Origin: a virus
Reading direction: 5' to 3' (one strand)
Length of the DNA: 22,447 nt
Virus record (IMG/VR): IMGVR_UViG_3300047353_000006
Coordinates: 1 to 22,447 of that record
The notes below the pieces were generated by a model that saw nothing but the letters and a program-made list of their open reading frames with translations, had not been told where the DNA came from and did no database searches. Below are positions 2,767 to 12,752 of the stretch, piece after piece. The translations under genes were made by a program, and so were the position numbers. Position 1 is the first letter of the stretch, and every line of letters begins with the position of its first letter.

Positions 2767-3390
2767 TTACGCTGTAATGTGTACAGTATTGTTTGTGTCT
2801 TGCTTACCTATAAACAGAGTGCGCTGTCTGCTATACTCATCTGCGTAATCTTGGTAAGGGAATACTACAGCTGTTGGATCTGCTAGATTAACAGACAGAG
2901 TAGCAGATATTGTATCGAGTGTCACTGAAGCTTGAGCATCTTCATCAGTAAACTCGTAGTTGTTTAGCGTCAGAGATACACCTGTGATGGGTATATCTGC
3001 CTTGGCATCAAACCCTAGTGTCTCTGCGGTAATAGTAGCAGGTATAGTGTCAAACACTATAGAAGCTTTAGCATCTACATCTGCAAAAGTATTGATACTG
3101 AAAGAAGCGGTGACAGCTGTAGGTGTGGTACTAGCTTGCGCTTCTGTAACTACAGCATTGATAGTTGTAGCAGCAATAACCTCTGCTATAGATGTAGTAG
3201 CCTGAGCATCAAACTCAATAGCTACTTCACCTGTAGCGGCTACACTACCCAGCGTGTGAAATGCTATAGCTTCGTAAAGCAAATCACCTGTGCTAAACTG
3301 AGCAAGTGTTCCTGGCAAGAACGCATTAGCAAATACTGCTGTAGCACTCTGTGAAAGAGGGGTCTCAGATAAAGCTGTAAAGCCTAGCAT
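2767..3390 (-). CDS. Repeat-containing phage structural protein, unknown role
   Basis: 207 residues, no Cys, no Trp, very rich in Ala, Thr, Val and Ile. The start MLGFTALSETPLSQ is a common opening in small virion proteins of marine phages. The middle consists of imperfect repeats built on acidic-Ala-x-Ala(Ser) followed by a beta strand: FDAQATTSI, DVDAKASIVFDTIPATIT, FDAKADIPITGVSL, DEDAQASVTLDTISATLSV. The C-terminus has a charged tail (YADEYSRQRTLFIGKQD). A GAGGGG ribosome binding site is about 9 nt before the ATG. I infer a virion component because it lies inside the tail gene block; no specific function can be read from the sequence. Confidence 0.6.
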   Translation of the reverse strand: MLGFTALSETPLSQSATAVFANAFLPGTLAQFSTGDLLYEAIAFHTLGSVAATGEVAIEFDAQATTSIAEVIAATTINAVVTEAQASTTPTAVTASFSINTFADVDAKASIVFDTIPATITAETLGFDAKADIPITGVSLTLNNYEFTDEDAQASVTLDTISATLSVNLADPTAVVFPYQDYADEYSRQRTLFIGKQDTNNTVHITA

Positions 3391-3456
3391 GTTATGTGAC
3401 CCCTCTTACTGTTACGGGTTTAGTGTAGTTACTCAGGCTGCGTGGGCCATGTGATG

Positions 3457-4677
3457 TCAGGCCGCTAACTCTGATGCTTGATTTACTCCGAGGATATCTT
3501 CAAGCTTACTGCGTATACCAAGACCATCAAGGTTCTGTGCAAAAGATGGGGACCACCACAAGTTACTCAAGTGTAGGTAGTCCATAGAAGCCTGACCACT
3601 ATCCATTATTGTTTGCGGTGCTGATCCAAATGCGCCTGCGGGGTAAGCGTGTTTTATCATGTCACAAAAAGCAGGGTCATACTTACCACTTTCCATGCAA
3701 AGCTCCCCACGTTCTTTTGCATAATCCCAGAAGGGTGTGTTGTATTTAGACCCAGCAAAGTAGTGCATCATGATTATGCGTTCTACGTTTCTTACCAAAC
3801 CTACATATTCCATGTTGGCCTGTTCTACAGGCACAAGACCCTGAAGGTAGTTAATTGCGTTGTCTATAACAGTGCTGGCCATACCAAAAGACATAGCTTC
3901 CAGAGGCTCTAAGAAGAATGACGCATTACCATTGCTCGCTACTCTATCCGTAAAGTTACGGTTCTTTGAGTAGTTGTTGAAGCCAAACGAGTTAGTCTCT
4001 TCGCTTGGGGTCAAATCAAAGTCACTAAAGATTGCCTTGACGTCTTCTTTTACTTCTTCAAGGGTGTTGATGTCACTGTTATACAGATACCCAATGGAAC
4101 ATCTGTTTTGGAGGGGTATTCCAAAGACCCAACCATATGGGCGAGCAATTGTAAGCGTGTGAGAAAACTTGGGAGCGTCCCAGTAACACTGGTTAACGTG
4201 AACAGCGTTGACAGGGATGTAAGCAGACTGCGAGTGCTTACTGTAATCCTTGGGGCGACCAGAACAGTCAATGATGTAATCAGCATCAATGTCATCTGGT
4301 TTTACATTATGTTCAAACAAGTCAACATGATCTTTTAGTCTTCCATACACGTAGTCCTGCATCTTGTTTGCGTTAAAGTGCAAGGCCACTGTTGGTGAGG
4401 GAAACTCATGGAGAAACTCTTCTTCAGTGGCAGACCAACCCCGCTTGAAGATACCCGTTTTTACGTAGCCATCCACAAGATCAAAGTCTTTGGGACCAAA
4501 CCCTAGGGTTCGATGCAGAAGGGAAGGGAGCACGAGAGTTGTCCCCTCGCCTACCGCCTGCGGTTTAATGTTAGGATCGTAGTGCCACTCAACTTTTGCT
4601 TCTGGAAAGCTAAGTTTCATTTGCACCGCCGACATGCACCCAACAGTTCCACGACCTATGACCGCGTACTTCTTCAC
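3457..4677 (-). CDS. Flavin-dependent (tryptophan-type) halogenase
   Basis: 406 residues, shorter than the roughly 500-540 of bacterial tryptophan halogenases but covering the core. Visible features: FAD-binding GRGTVG at 8-13 (GxGxxG); the VGEGT segment at 42-46 (family VGEAT); Lys73 in YVKTGIFKRGW, aligning with the catalytic lysine of PrnA/RebH; FAD-domain IIDCSG at 135-140; WVFGIP at 183-188, a variant of the family signature WxWxIP with Phe for the second Trp; LEPLEAMSFG at 256-265, whose Glu260 aligns with the second catalytic residue of PrnA; and HYFAGSKYNTPFW at 305-317. Such enzymes use FADH2, oxygen and halide to halogenate electron-rich substrates, and need a flavin reductase, absent here. 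The GTG start forms a GTGA overlap with the stop of the tail assembly chaperone gene, so translation is coupled to tail genes. A related cyanophage enzyme, VirX1, has been characterised as an iodinating halogenase. The substrate is unknown. Confidence 0.88.
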   Translation of the reverse strand: MKKYAVIGRGTVGCMSAVQMKLSFPEAKVEWHYDPNIKPQAVGEGTTLVLPSLLHRTLGFGPKDFDLVDGYVKTGIFKRGWSATEEEFLHEFPSPTVALHFNANKMQDYVYGRLKDHVDLFEHNVKPDDIDADYIIDCSGRPKDYSKHSQSAYIPVNAVHVNQCYWDAPKFSHTLTIARPYGWVFGIPLQNRCSIGYLYNSDINTLEEVKEDVKAIFSDFDLTPSEETNSFGFNNYSKNRNFTDRVASNGNASFFLEPLEAMSFGMASTVIDNAINYLQGLVPVEQANMEYVGLVRNVERIIMMHYFAGSKYNTPFWDYAKERGELCMESGKYDPAFCDMIKHAYPAGAFGSAPQTIMDSGQASMDYLHLSNLWWSPSFAQNLDGLGIRSKLEDILGVNQASELAA

Positions 4678-5114
4678 GACATGTCCAAAACAGAAGGAAG
4701 CGTTGGCCAGACCACAGAAGTTGGGAACGTAGCTTGAGCCGTAATATCCAACAAATCTGTTCGGTACTGTGTGACTTCCGTTTGTTCATCAGAAGTTAAC
4801 CCACTCCATCGCATAGGATTTGAAACCACAGGGTCAACAAACGCCCGTAATTGGCTGGCTCTTAAAAGCCTAATTTCAGCAGCGTTAGCAGCATCTATTT
4901 CCGCCTGAGTGGGGGGTGTTGGGGCAATGTATGCCCCAATCGCACCGTCTGCCTGCATCTGGGCAAGCAGTACAGTGTTGTCGATAGTCATGTCGGCGTC
5001 ATTTACATCTAGGGTATACGGCGTCCAACCTTCATACTCAGGCAGATTAAGAAAGCAGTCAATACGATTGCCTGTGTCGTCAATATAAACCGCGTCTTTG
5101 TAAACATATGTCAT
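4674..5114 (-). CDS. Tail fibre assembly / tail assembly chaperone-like protein
   Basis: 146 residues from ATG 5114, chosen because GAGGT lies 7 nt upstream and the ATG overlaps the preceding stop as TAATG; an in-frame start 6 codons upstream is less well placed. The N-terminal half is a small acidic domain. The C-terminal half has the usual pattern of phage tail assembly chaperones: PPTQAEIDAANAAEIRLLRA, then RWSGLTSDEQTEVTQYR, LLDITAQATFP, VVWPTLP. These proteins help fold or trimerise fibres and are usually encoded directly downstream of their fibre gene, as here. The family recognition is good; whether it serves the 928-residue fibre, the 156-residue protein or both is open. Confidence 0.72.
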   Translation of the reverse strand: MTYVYKDAVYIDDTGNRIDCFLNLPEYEGWTPYTLDVNDADMTIDNTVLLAQMQADGAIGAYIAPTPPTQAEIDAANAAEIRLLRASQLRAFVDPVVSNPMRWSGLTSDEQTEVTQYRTDLLDITAQATFPTSVVWPTLPSVLDMS

Positions 5115-5584
5115 TAAGAGTACCTCACCCAAAGACCGGGAAATGATGGACCCCAGTTTGTACTAGCTTCAGGCGGGTTTCTCATTGCTGGAGTCATTAA
5201 CCGCCAACTTCCCGAATAAGTCTGGTCACTTTGTAGGGAGGAATTGGTAGAAAAGCTGTTGTTCTGACTAGCAGTCAGACCTGTCGTACCAGAGGTAGAG
5301 GTTGTTTGGTTTGTAATAGCTACCGCTCCCCCCTCTATGCCACGGGATTCTAAATTGCTACCTGCGGTAGTCCTACCCTCTTTATAGCCTACCCCTTGAG
5401 TATTTGATTGCGAAGTGTCATGTGCAACGGTGTACGTTCCCACTCCGTTGACGGCTGTACTAGCTCCAGTGGTAATATCGCCGCTTCCAAGGATAGACGA
5501 TCCGCCGACCGTCTTTAGGCCACCCACGTTTGACAGGTTCCTGCTGTTGTCAATAACGGTTGTGCCGTTTACCTGTATAGCCAT
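5114..5584 (-). CDS. Short tail fibre / tip protein, Ser-Thr-Asn rich
   Basis: 156 residues. The N-terminus MAIQVNGTTVIDNSRNLSNV is a common attachment motif of small phage fibre proteins (NGTTVID.SRNL.N). The middle is a low-complexity S/T/N/G stretch likely to form an elongated beta fibre, and the C-terminus ends in a compact W/P-rich segment (NWGPSFPGLWVRYS) like receptor-facing tips. It lies between the long fibre and the assembly chaperone, 18 nt after the fibre stop. GGAGGAT about 5-8 nt before the ATG serves as ribosome binding site. Fibre identity is inferred from composition and context. Confidence 0.6.
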   Translation of the reverse strand: MAIQVNGTTVIDNSRNLSNVGGLKTVGGSSILGSGDITTGASTAVNGVGTYTVAHDTSQSNTQGVGYKEGRTTAGSNLESRGIEGGAVAITNQTTSTSGTTGLTASQNNSFSTNSSLQSDQTYSGSWRLMTPAMRNPPEASTNWGPSFPGLWVRYS

Positions 5585-5602
5585 CTTCGTATCCTCCTAC
5601 TA

Positions 5603-8389
5603 TTAGCTATTGAGTTGTGCTTTAAGCTCATCAATCTGAACTTGCTGCTCTTTGATTGCCTCTATCAAGAGACCAACCATGTTGCCGTATTGGACAGTCA
5701 AGTGACCTTCACCACCCTCTTGTACCAATTCAGGCATAACCTTCTGTACTTCTTGAGCAATAACACCAGATGACTTCTCATCATTGTGTTTGAACGTGAA
5801 GTTGTAACCACCAAGCTGCTGCACCTTGCTTACCGCATCTGTGATAGGTGTAATATCTTTCTTGGTGTTCTCATCTGACGTGGTGTTAAACGTGCCAGCT
5901 TGCATCGTGCCAGTAGTCAGGATGCTCTTGTTGTTATAAGAGCGTATCCAAGTGGTGTCTTGCATCTGCCAGCCACCAGCGTAGTTCTCCCAGTAGATAC
6001 CCTTTGCGCCATTCACCCTAAACCAATCGTTTGCGTAGATTTTGTTATGCGTGACGTTGTCGCTGGTGTTAACGTTCTGGTTTGCCGTGAACGTGGTGTA
6101 ACCCGCACCGTTGGTGAGCTGGTTGTTGTTTGTTACATTGGTTGCGCCATCAGCTACGTTTAGAAGTGCACGAGCCGCAGCCGCCGTGTAAGAGCGTCCA
6201 TAGGTGTCAAAGCCGTTAGTACCTGTAAACAGACCCATACCATAAGTATCACCGCTTGTTGAGAAAGTCCCTGAACCGTTAAAGTAGCGAGAAAAGAGGT
6301 ATCCCTGAGAGGTACGTTGGGGAACTGTGCTGTTACTTTCGCCTGTTGATACCGTGTAAGGGAAGCTGTAGTTGTTAGCGTTTGTATCGCCTGTATAGCC
6401 TAAGTTAGCCAGTGTCATGGTACGAGTAGCTAAGTTAGTGACGTGACCATATGTATCAAGATCAATGTCGCTGACCACGTTAGCACCTGTAAGTGCTGTG
6501 AGGCTACCTTGTGAAGACGTATCAGAGTGTGCTACAGCATCAGCTGTAACTGTGATACCACCACCAGCGCCAATATTGAACGTGCGGTTAGCACCCAGTG
6601 TACCACCACCAGTAAGACCGTTACCTGCTGTGAATGTGGTGCTGTCATCTACCTTAGCATCTAGGGCTGTCTGCAGACCGTCTACGTTAGAGATAACGTG
6701 AGCGTGTGAGTCATCCTGTACAGCAGCTGTGATGCTGATATTACCTGTACCATCAAAGTTAGCGTTACCTACTACGTCACCCGCGAGAGCAATGTTACGT
6801 GCTGTGGCTAAGGCAGTAGCTGTAGCAGCGTTACCAGATGTGTTCTGGTTACCAGCAGAATTGACACCTGGAAGTGTAATGTTAGCTGTACCATCAAAAG
6901 ATACACCGCCAATGGTACGTGCTGTCTCTAGCGCAGTTGCTGTAGCGGCATTACCGGATGTGTCTTGGTTACCCGCAGTATTTACACCAGCTAGGTTGAT
7001 GTTAGTAGAGCCATCAAAAGACACGCCACCAATGTTACGTGCTGTCTGAAGTGTGGTAGCTGTACTTGCGTTACCTGTAAGAGATGCAGTTACACCAGCA
7101 AACGTAGGTGTTGCAGTAGTACGAATGTCTTGGATAGTATCAAAGGTTGTGCCTGTGAGAGTTAAGCTATCACCAGCAGAATAGATAGAAGTCTCAGCTA
7201 CCTCTGCAAAGACAATGTTAGTTGTACCAAACGTAATCGTACCTGAGGTGGTAAGTACATCCAAGTGACCTGCGTTGTTAGTGCCTTCCTTGATAAAGAA
7301 AGCATCACCTTTACCTAGAGCGTCTGGGTCAGAAGGTGACGAACTATCTGTGTCCGTAGAACGAGTAAGAACCCACGCAGTAGAACCATCACCTACTGTG
7401 GTTACTGTGTATACACCATTTTGTGTTTGATCTGTCTGGTTGGCTACAAGTACACGGTCATTCAATATCATGCTAACGTCATCTAGTACTAGAGCAGCAT
7501 TTGTACCTGCATTAACAAGTGTAGCACCTACACCAGAGGAGCCGTTGTTATATGTAGCATTTAAGTTACTAGGATGCTCTGCTCGTACAGGATCGTGATA
7601 GTGGATACCTGCAGAAGCAATCGTGTCAACGTACTGTTTTGTTGCAGCACTTAAAGCGGCACTAGGATCAGCACTCAGAGTTACTGTACCGGTAGCAGTA
7701 ATGTTGTTGAATGTCACGTTTGACGTAGTAGCTACGGCTTGATCTACATCAGAGAGATCCGCTGCAGCAATAGTGATGTTAGCTGTACCATCGAAGCTTT
7801 TACCTGCAATGGTTCTAGCAGTTTGTAATGCTGTTGCAGTATCTGCATTACCTGTGAGGTCAGATGTAACACCGTTGAAAGTAACAGCATCACCAGTACC
7901 TACAGCCTGACCGATAGAGATAGCACCAGCGTTGTATGTAACGCCAGTACCACCAGAGAGGTGCGCGTCAACACGAGCGTCTGTGTAGTAGAGCGAAGCA
8001 CCTTCAGGTAGATCCGCAGTAGTGTGATTACCAAATGTGACTGTAGCAGCAAGGTCATTGCTATCAACGTCTAGTGTAGCAGCCGCAGAAGCTGGGTAAG
8101 TCATGAATATGTCTTTAGTACCCGCTGAAAAGTCTACAGCAGAAGTACCGTTAGAGCCAGACAGTACTGTTGTACGGGTAAGAGTGTTACCTGTGTTCCA
8201 AGTACCTAGTCCTACTTCCCACTCATCAACACCAGAAGCGGTATGCACAACAGCATAGTAAGTCGTGTCACCATTCGACATATAAGAGTTGAAGGGTTCA
8301 AAGGTAGCCCCTGCCCCACCTAGAGCAAATGCACCAGTACCAGCGGTAGTAGTCCCTTCTTTTACACGATCTTTAATGATGAATGCCAT
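5603..8389 (-). CDS. Long tail fibre/spike with C-terminal S74 intramolecular chaperone
   Basis: 928 residues. N-terminal domain (about 1-115, MAFIIKDRVKEGTTTAGTG...) is of the type that anchors side fibres to the virion. The central 120-700 region is a chain of repeats with the core TATALxTAR.I.GVSFDGTANI, three of them near-identical at 40-residue spacing. The C-terminal about 91 residues are a Peptidase_S74 chaperone: SDENTK at 838-843 gives the Ser and Lys of the self-cleavage dyad, followed by YNFTFK, SSGVIAQEVQ, MPELV, VQYGNMVGLLIEAIKEQQ and a terminal coiled coil. By family precedent the chaperone trimerises the fibre and cuts itself off before Ser838. ATG 8389 has AGGT 8 nt upstream. 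Host recognition is the expected role; the receptor is unknown. Confidence 0.85.
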   Translation of the reverse strand: MAFIIKDRVKEGTTTAGTGAFALGGAGATFEPFNSYMSNGDTTYYAVVHTASGVDEWEVGLGTWNTGNTLTRTTVLSGSNGTSAVDFSAGTKDIFMTYPASAAATLDVDSNDLAATVTFGNHTTADLPEGASLYYTDARVDAHLSGGTGVTYNAGAISIGQAVGTGDAVTFNGVTSDLTGNADTATALQTARTIAGKSFDGTANITIAAADLSDVDQAVATTSNVTFNNITATGTVTLSADPSAALSAATKQYVDTIASAGIHYHDPVRAEHPSNLNATYNNGSSGVGATLVNAGTNAALVLDDVSMILNDRVLVANQTDQTQNGVYTVTTVGDGSTAWVLTRSTDTDSSSPSDPDALGKGDAFFIKEGTNNAGHLDVLTTSGTITFGTTNIVFAEVAETSIYSAGDSLTLTGTTFDTIQDIRTTATPTFAGVTASLTGNASTATTLQTARNIGGVSFDGSTNINLAGVNTAGNQDTSGNAATATALETARTIGGVSFDGTANITLPGVNSAGNQNTSGNAATATALATARNIALAGDVVGNANFDGTGNISITAAVQDDSHAHVISNVDGLQTALDAKVDDSTTFTAGNGLTGGGTLGANRTFNIGAGGGITVTADAVAHSDTSSQGSLTALTGANVVSDIDLDTYGHVTNLATRTMTLANLGYTGDTNANNYSFPYTVSTGESNSTVPQRTSQGYLFSRYFNGSGTFSTSGDTYGMGLFTGTNGFDTYGRSYTAAAARALLNVADGATNVTNNNQLTNGAGYTTFTANQNVNTSDNVTHNKIYANDWFRVNGAKGIYWENYAGGWQMQDTTWIRSYNNKSILTTGTMQAGTFNTTSDENTKKDITPITDAVSKVQQLGGYNFTFKHNDEKSSGVIAQEVQKVMPELVQEGGEGHLTVQYGNMVGLLIEAIKEQQVQIDELKAQLNS
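6797..7070 (-). repeat. 120-bp tandem repeats inside the fibre gene
   Basis: The string ACGTGCTGT recurs on the plus strand at 6797, 6917 and 7037, exactly 120 bases apart, within longer near-identical blocks encoding a 40-residue unit (TAR.IGGVSFDG...GNQ.TSGNAATATAL.). A diverged copy lies near 7790-7870. Such in-frame repeats can expand or contract fibre length by recombination. Confidence 0.85.
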
Positions 8390-11228: not shown

Positions 11229-12752
11229 TTACTTCTTCTTCTTTTTACGTTTCTTAGTTACAAGAGCACCTTTGTTTAGACCATCTTCATCAGCGCCTAC
11301 TGTAAACGAACCACCACCAGGTGTGCTATATGTAGTTTCTGTTACGCTACTGCCACTTGGGTCTGTTGTAGTGCTACTGCTTATGGGTGTATAAGTATTG
11401 CTGTCGTTGTTGCCGCTATCACGTACCCATGCTGGTTGTGATCGTCTTGCTTCCGCAGCTGCAATCTCAGCCTCTCGTGCTTCAATCTCTGCTAATCTTT
11501 TGCGAGAAGCCTCAGCCCTTTCTTGCGTAGCTTCAAAATTAGACTGTATTGTTTCTGCGTATGGAGTTGGACCTTGGTCATAAGGCGTTGTAACATCCCC
11601 AGCAACTACCTCTGGAGTGTATGGCTCAGGTTTTTCAGCCTCATACCTATCAAACTCACCATCAGTAGCATCTTCTGCCTTAGCTTTCTCAAGTGCTGCT
11701 GCCTCTTCCTCATTCTCTGGGAAGAACTCATCCTTCAGTGCACCAAACACACGTTTGATCAAACCAGGTTTTTCTTCTTTAGATGCTTTTAGCAAACCTT
11801 CAAGAACAGCTTTGTCTGAAGTAGAAGTAGCTTTATCATTAACCCTACGCTCAATCTCATTCTCTAAACGTCTTGCACTATCCATCATAGCACCTTTTAT
11901 GAAGAGACCCATGATTGGGTTTATAGCACCGACAGCAATAGCTACTCCAGTCATCTTAGAGGACTGCTGCTCTTCCAGCATATTTGCAATCTCTTCTGTG
12001 GTAAGCTCTGCATAGTTAACAGCTTTTGGCATAGGTGCGCTATAGCCACCGCCGCCATTCCCACCGCCAGATACAATCTGAGGTGCAGGCTGTGCTGTTG
12101 TCGTACCTACAGAATCTTGGTAGTTTGTTTTCTCTTGTAGCGTATAGCCTGGTGGGATAGTTGTCTGAGGCTTACCATCAATGAACGTGATGAAAATAGT
12201 GTGACCTGCTTCATTCTTGTAAGAGCGAACCTCTACAGTAGGCATATCACCAGCTGATTCATAGCCTGTGCTAATACCTTCAGCACCTAAGCCCAGCGCA
12301 CCCATCTCATCATAACCTTCGTCACCGGGGGAAAGAGCATAGCCACCTGATCCAGTGTAGCCACCTATAGCCATTTCCATAGGTTGTCCATCATCTTCTA
12401 CTTCTAGCTCAGAGATGTCAAACATCATGTCATCTTCTGGTTCAATGATTTCCATACCACCTACGGGTTCACCTCCAATGCGTCCGTTCTCTTCCATGTC
12501 TTGATAGCCGAACTTAGCTTTAGCGCGTAGGTCTTCAAAGTACTTAACACCATAGTAACGTACTACGTCAGCAGGTACAACATACTCACCTTCACTTAGT
12601 TGTGCAGGGATGTCATCTCGTACTTCCTCTGGCATAGAACCTAATGGTACTTCGTTACCAGACACAGGGTCAATACCTTGAGTGTTTTCAGGTACTGTGT
12701 CTAAGTCTAGAGCGCCACCTTCTGCGAAGGCCATTTCCATCTGTTTATCCAT
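11229..12752 (-). CDS. Hypothetical head-module protein with a conserved SEGEYVVPADVV segment
   Basis: 507 residues. A conserved segment at about 46-76 (DDIPAQLSEGEYVVPADVV, then RYYGVKYFEDLR) is widespread in phage proteins encoded near the portal. The following 80-240 region is acidic and Gly-rich; residues about 267-290 form a hydrophobic stretch (MTGVAIAVGAINPIMGLFIK), then comes an acidic coiled-coil-like part and a Lys/Arg-only tail at 500-507. The ATG at 12752 overlaps the upstream gene by 8 nt. The hydrophobic segment in a large head-module protein would fit a virion protein that reaches the membrane during DNA entry, but this is inference. I do not recognise a named function. Confidence 0.6.
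   Translation of the reverse strand: MDKQMEMAFAEGGALDLDTVPENTQGIDPVSGNEVPLGSMPEEVRDDIPAQLSEGEYVVPADVVRYYGVKYFEDLRAKAKFGYQDMEENGRIGGEPVGGMEIIEPEDDMMFDISELEVEDDGQPMEMAIGGYTGSGGYALSPGDEGYDEMGALGLGAEGISTGYESAGDMPTVEVRSYKNEAGHTIFITFIDGKPQTTIPPGYTLQEKTNYQDSVGTTTAQPAPQIVSGGGNGGGGYSAPMPKAVNYAELTTEEIANMLEEQQSSKMTGVAIAVGAINPIMGLFIKGAMMDSARRLENEIERRVNDKATSTSDKAVLEGLLKASKEEKPGLIKRVFGALKDEFFPENEEEAAALEKAKAEDATDGEFDRYEAEKPEPYTPEVVAGDVTTPYDQGPTPYAETIQSNFEATQERAEASRKRLAEIEAREAEIAAAEARRSQPAWVRDSGNNDSNTYTPISSSTTTDPSGSSVTETTYSTPGGGSFTVGADEDGLNKGALVTKKRKKKKK

Follow-up and report, generated by a model that had tools for sequence, protein, structure and literature searches.

The halogenase gene lies on the minus strand of an IMG/VR virus fragment of 22,447 nucleotides (hereafter the window). 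The backbone is of the HMO-2011 podovirus type, with Roseobacter phage CRP-207 as a close relative (88% identity over 72%). The terminase, portal, capsid and adaptor genes occur in the same order in CRP-207, which carries a different fibre cassette without a halogenase. The two phages also differ in an internal virion protein, encoded by a 507-aa reading frame in the window (11229-12752) and by a 945-aa counterpart in CRP-207, with 71% identity over the shared part. The features of the locus are presented in Table 1.

Table 1. Features of the halogenase locus (window coordinates).
Feature	Position	Strand	Evidence
FDH-family gene of 406 aa closing the fibre-tip cassette	3457..4677	-	PF04820, PHROG 2928, PDB/Foldseek, AF2
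GTGA shared by halogenase start and chaperone stop	4674..4677	-	sequence; 1/4/8-nt equivalents in 23/24 relatives
GRGTVG codons (GxGxxG, residues 8-13)	4639..4656	-	homologue alignment
Catalytic Lys73 codon	4459..4461	-	invariant in 26 homologues; aligns with PyrH K75
H90-E-F92 codons (Trp2 HxF motif of the arene pocket)	4402..4410	-	aligns with PrnA H101/F103
W183-V-F-G-I-P188 codons (WxWxIP variant)	4114..4131	-	alignment
Catalytic Glu260 and Ala261 codons (Ser in PrnA/Thal)	3895..3900	-	invariant in 26 homologues
Tail-fibre assembly chaperone, frame open to TTG 5132	4674..5114	-	PF16778, E 5e-8; PHROG 4628, 8e-14
156-aa fibre-tip-like protein, type I, ends SGSWRLM...NWGPSFPGLWVRYS	5114..5584	-	position and sequence; putative tip role
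928-aa tail fibre, C-terminus a peptidase S74 chaperone domain	5603..8389	-	PF13884, 6e-15; PHROG tail fibre families
First downstream backbone gene, 207 aa	2767..3390	-	directly 3' of chaperone in halogenase-less relatives
Minimal mobile cassette, fibre 3' end to halogenase end	3473..5685	-	97.5% identical to L004, flanks unrelated

The GTG-initiated reading frame is real and lies far beyond chance, since its dN/dS against close relatives is 0.035-0.17. Values for the tip gene are 0.15-0.35, those of the halogenase being lower or similar; the halogenase is under purifying selection and the tip evolves faster. The 406-aa product matched PF04820 (E 7e-27; 94.7 bits against a curated cut-off of 21), PHROG 2928 (1.6e-69) and 30 PDB chains from all classes of solved flavin-dependent halogenases (FDHs), and is almost certainly a member of this family. 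As originally described, its start (GTG, 4677-4675) overlaps the stop of the chaperone gene (TGA, 4676-4674). For the chaperone gene the probable start is ATG 5114, which has a base in common with the preceding stop (TAATG), and tip, chaperone and halogenase would therefore be coupled in series.

Lys73 and Glu260, which the original prediction had named as the catalytic pair, aligned exactly with PyrH K75 and with the PrnA E346/Thal E358 position, and both are invariant in the 26 aligned homologues. The catalytic-site residues of Thal are K79, E358 and S359 (PMC7948982). The GxGxxG motif is likewise present (G8-R-G10-T-V-G13), and so is the HxF motif of the arene pocket (H90 and F92, the latter invariant). 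Two altered signatures had been missed: GWVFGIP stands in place of GWxWxIP, with Phe185 for Trp, and FLEPLEAMS in place of FxxPxxSxG, with Ala261 for Ser, an Ala that is invariant among the homologues. The overlapping motif FX[DE]PX[EFL] is intact. FxxPxxSxG, or variants of it, is said to mark all active FDHs; WxWxIP is thought to block monooxygenation, and variants of it occur in active FDHs. Because of these two replacements activity is still a prediction, and we consider it likely that the enzyme is an active halogenase. The Ser-to-Ala change was considered as proof of inactivity and rejected, as the long FDHs of phages P-SSM2 and HTVC008M, themselves putative halogenases, share the Ala. 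Genes annotated as tryptophan halogenases in CP21 (L051), Syn1 (L089), S-SSM7 (L090) and P-TIM40 (L092) carry Gln in the position of the catalytic Glu (EPLQ or EPIQ), and these may lack the capacity for halogenation.

Structure prediction agreed with the assignment: the AF2 model (pLDDT 88, pTM 0.87) displayed an FDH fold with an FAD-binding domain, was placed by Foldseek on PrnA, PyrH and RebH, and had only FDHs among its best 50 PDB matches. The protein is approximately 100-140 residues shorter than VirX1, PrnA and RebH, a difference in size that had gone unnoticed. Its segment 74-103 comprises 30 residues compared to 72-85 in the long phage FDHs, and the missing substrate insert amounts to ∼50 residues in VirX1-like phage FDHs and 85 in RebH. 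In the profile alignment to RebH, residue 110 is followed directly by residue 198, so that 111-197 are skipped; no segment corresponding to the Trp4 motif or helical lid was found in this alignment, and the C-terminal motif is unlike that of RebH. FDHs from which lids or loops have been removed are reported to accept larger substrates, Trp within proteins among them (PMC7948982, PMC9775415).

In comparison to PrnA, RebH, PyrH and Thal, the window protein shares the fold (TM 0.67-0.75 by query length), GxGxxG, the catalytic Lys and Glu and the HxF motif. These enzymes are only 16-19% identical to it and longer (511-551 aa), have both the Trp4 lid and an insert between HxF and the next core strand, and read WxWxIP and EPLES, whereas the window protein has neither lid nor insert, reads WVFGIP and EPLEA, and is encoded in a phage late operon. 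VirX1 of cyanophage Syn10 (PDB 6QGM), to which the enzyme had been likened, is also a viral FDH without a helical lid and is weakly similar (E 2e-10); this analogy proved to be loose, as VirX1 has 531 aa, possesses the insert, and lies outside a fibre cassette as far as could be tested through a relative in Syn1. The insert between HxF and HFxA that characterizes the VirX1-type long form is absent from the window enzyme, and short and long FDHs form separate clades. The window enzyme belongs to a separate short, lidless and essentially phage-only FDH subfamily.

Two signature peptides of the family were found at three loci in 84,980 bacterial and archaeal genomes, as opposed to 230 in IMG/VR. 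All three cellular loci are in metagenome bins, and the subfamily is essentially viral as far as a pattern scan can show. The bins in question (L086, L087 and L088) are archaeal, Poribacteria and Chloroflexi MAGs, and the loci are perhaps viral contigs binned with cells. No isolate with the clade was found among 50,697 phage records, a collection that may omit records very near the window, and the best match was S-RIM4 (45%).

The 156-aa tip-like protein had no match in the same 50,697 records, and its full-length relatives occur only beside halogenases. The AF2 monomer model, built from 10 sequences, had a pLDDT of 43 and was left out of the fold search. In a second scan, covering 79 halogenase loci, nearly all of the relatives with 49-53% identity were located behind a large Gly-rich fibre gene and a small gene. 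All ten of the small genes tested matched PF16778 (E 8e-5 to 1e-10), that of L132 below the curated cut-off. Reduction at 95% identity left 24 chaperone-linked and 44 unlinked halogenases. The coupling to tail genes noted in the window is conserved among the former: in 23 of the 24, as in the window, start and stop have 1, 4 or 8 nt in common, a recurrence in other phages that had escaped the original prediction.

On a 77-row tree the linked halogenases require a single change, compared to a mean of 20.5 after shuffling (0/500 as low). They form two subclades with support of 100 and 99, matching the two types of tip: LWVRYS-type in type I, and in type II Gly-rich proteins, several with a collagen stalk, ending GSIRIYY-like. 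The branch uniting the linked clade had an SH-aLRT of 76 in a quick tree. Chaperones with at least 45% identity to the type II query were accompanied by a halogenase in 12/12 cases, and more distant ones in 0/65; for relatives of the type I chaperone the figure was 7/7. Full-length tip relatives were found beside a halogenase in 8/8 (type I) and 5/5 (type II) cases, in scans of chaperones and tips that reach close relatives only and in which some loci are the same contigs. No conserved stretch was found in 12 diverse type II tip ends, and the scan was repeated with four closer ends. This linkage of halogenase, tip and chaperone is the main new result, and a functional tie of the enzyme to the tip or the chaperone is likely. 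We found no report of the linkage in the open-access literature on halogenases with tail fibres or with roseophages.

Fibre coupling was rejected as a general feature of phage FDHs: those of Sf-CH8, CP21, HTVC008M, S-SSM5, S-MS29 and S-SSM7, as well as of freshwater relatives, are located elsewhere. It is not a trait of the whole short family either, since the more distant short FDHs (43-48%) occur in other contexts, e.g. DNA metabolism. Cyanophage PrnA (T4-like gene cluster 212; PMC3037559) also comprises phage FDHs, some of them short (359-390 aa), which differ in their scattered positions (before talC, gp33 or DNA genes) and lack a tail chaperone upstream.

Cassette DNA of the window was compared with that of 45 relatives. 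The segment from the fibre 3' end to the halogenase was 97.5% identical in L004, 93.6% in L005 (where the match reaches 5894) and 92% in L017, with unrelated flanks. Similarity stops at most 39 nt before the halogenase stop codon in L004-L012 and L015, and 11 nt past it, before the terminase gene, in L013; L014 diverges earlier. L005 and L017 share their junctions (97.7% identity over 2.3 kb), and the same junctions recur in independent contigs and dozens of loci. The backbones differ, being Cobavirus-like in L013, L014 and L041 (relatives CRP-5 and SIO1), CRP-902-like in L015, and others elsewhere. L013 and L014 have terminases that are 94% identical and halogenases that are 62% identical, the L013 halogenase being 94% identical to that of the window; similarly, L124 and L134 share 96-99% identity in backbone genes and 62.5% in halogenases. 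L016 has a window-like backbone (adaptor 86%), a different tip, and a halogenase with 53% identity. Empty sites, in which the chaperone is followed directly by the terminase or by the MLGF gene, were found in Cobavirus-like (L216, L234) and HMO-type (L198, L214, L243) phages, respectively.

The data show that tip, chaperone and halogenase are a mobile cassette swapped between unrelated roseophage backbones. A tip and its cognate chaperone, common to unrelated backbones, constitute a mobile host-recognition module, and the halogenase subclades track tip type rather than backbone. Modules of fibre and chaperone are known to swap between phage families (PMC10579305); in Alteromonas phages A5 and V22 they have likewise moved across unrelated marine phages, with no halogenase or other tip-modifying enzyme reported, unlike the window cassette (PMC10579305). 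One locus, L003 (6187-12089), joins an unrelated upstream half to 3.5 kb that are 96.8% identical to the window and include backbone genes, its downstream genes being 100% those of the window. It may be a recombinant or an assembly chimera and was therefore dropped as evidence of transfer on its own.

The best explanation for this arrangement, to which we assign a probability of roughly 0.48, is that a phage-specific lidless FDH, encoded last in a host-recognition cassette, acts on the fibre tip while this is still in the cytosol and unassembled. FDHs depend on reduced flavin from the cytosol. In established FDH chemistry, FADH2 and O2 yield a C4a-hydroperoxide, halide then gives hypohalous acid (HOX), and the Lys guides HOX to an electron-rich arene. 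Since reduced flavin is required and a signal peptide is absent, the reaction would be cytosolic, and as the abundant co-translated partners there are tip and chaperone, the tip would be the most likely substrate, a proposition to which we give about even odds. The overlapping start would cause the enzyme to be made alongside the chaperone, late in infection; host FADH2, O2 and seawater halide would generate a hypohalous species guided past Lys73, and the absence of lid and insert would allow a large substrate to enter, most likely the new fibre tip, free or chaperone-held. Halogenation of its aromatic residues prior to assembly could then tune receptor binding or stability. The original prediction thus holds for the open reading frame, its motifs and its coupling to tail genes; its suggestion of a fibre target has gained strong contextual evidence (cassette, linkage and tip tracking), with the tip as a candidate substrate, while a host surface target is unlikely, given the lack of a signal peptide, a Rossmann strand from residue 3 and the cytosolic reduced flavin.

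FDHs acting on proteins provide precedents (PMC9775415, PMC10286304): MibH (5UAO), SrpI (PMC10286304) and engineered PyrH (PMC9775415) share the FDH fold and act on tryptophan inside peptides or proteins, yet they are biosynthetic peptide enzymes or engineered ones, with no tie to virion proteins. Several points speak against modification of the tip. Physical linkage alone could keep the halogenase with the fibre genes; two unrelated tip types share the enzyme, so that a single recognized site is not obvious; and Ala261 and Phe185 differ from the residues of proven FDHs. Aromatic enrichment at the tip C-termini was weak (p 0.04 before correction; p 0.32 for at least one aromatic) and was not relied on as a clue to the substrate.

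It is also conceivable, if somewhat unlikely, that the enzyme is an auxiliary metabolic gene product halogenating a host small molecule (indole, signal, pigment or antibiotic), the slot behind the fibre being a cargo hot spot and the whole region being exchanged. Small arenes, free indoles among them, are indeed substrates of VirX1 and group C FDHs (PMC8407142, PMC8269204), the arene pocket retains its HxF part, related short FDHs occur in non-tail contexts, and the Alteromonas modules bring a CheY-like auxiliary gene with the fibre (PMC10579305). Hot-spot cargo should, however, turn over, whereas the same neighbour and overlap are kept in 24 lineages down to ∼50% identity, and the tracking of tip type by the subclades is again at odds with cargo. 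The two altered signatures suggest another scenario, namely that the protein is not a halogenase but a flavin monooxygenase with an FDH fold, adding hydroxyl groups to aromatic residues in the tip or in some other substrate: the motif thought to prevent monooxygenation has become WVFGIP, and Ala261 is invariant in FLEPLEAMS. We regard this as distinctly unlikely, as the halogenation-specific Lys and Glu are invariant, WxWxIP variants occur in active FDHs and FX[DE]PX[EFL] is retained.

Co-inheritance with tip type and late expression would equally be accounted for if the enzyme acted on a cytosolic host protein or receptor precursor, so that late new receptors stop binding the phage's own tips (control of superinfection or debris binding); tip type and enzyme would then both track one receptor. 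Such a role needs a cytosolic receptor precursor and is improbable. The enzyme has no secretion signal, late-infected cells make little new envelope protein, and we know of no precedent. That the gene is a functionless passenger, or the arrangement a product of contig chimerism, is very improbable and already largely refuted: the window is a metagenome fragment and L003 is possibly chimeric, but dN/dS is low (0.035-0.17) and the same junctions recur in independent contigs such as L005 and L017.

Phage halogenases have appeared in lists of metabolic genes since 2010, to our knowledge without an assigned target. For one group of them the locus points to a specific partner, a tip and its chaperone, co-inherited over deep divergence. 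Tentatively, marine phages may possess a maturation enzyme dedicated to halogenating the tips with which they bind receptors, with enzyme, chaperone and tip exchanged as one cassette between families. If modification of the tip is true, a virion protein would be halogenated post-translationally in nature, and one viral halogenase group would have a role; host recognition would make use of a chemical group outside the genetic code, so that neither receptor nor host range could be predicted from the sequence of the tip alone. Protein halogenation would in that case also gain a useful tool, a short enzyme that lacks a lid and brings its own protein partner.

Some further arrangements were observed among the other phage halogenases. 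Two adjacent halogenase genes occur in one phage in L022 (9992-12411), L146 (2808-5170), L166 (3995-6318) and L095 (S-RIM44; 2995-6106), apparently as independent duplications or pairs. In L033, L052 (HTVC008M) and L089 (Syn1), genes for 2OG-Fe(II) oxygenases, or genes resembling phytanoyl-CoA dioxygenase, lie near distant halogenases, and are possibly other modifiers of the same target. In the T4-like relatives L018 (8337-10004), L122 and L123, a carbamoyltransferase gene (matching PF16861/PF02543 in L018) immediately precedes the halogenase gene, and fibre genes lie on the opposite side.
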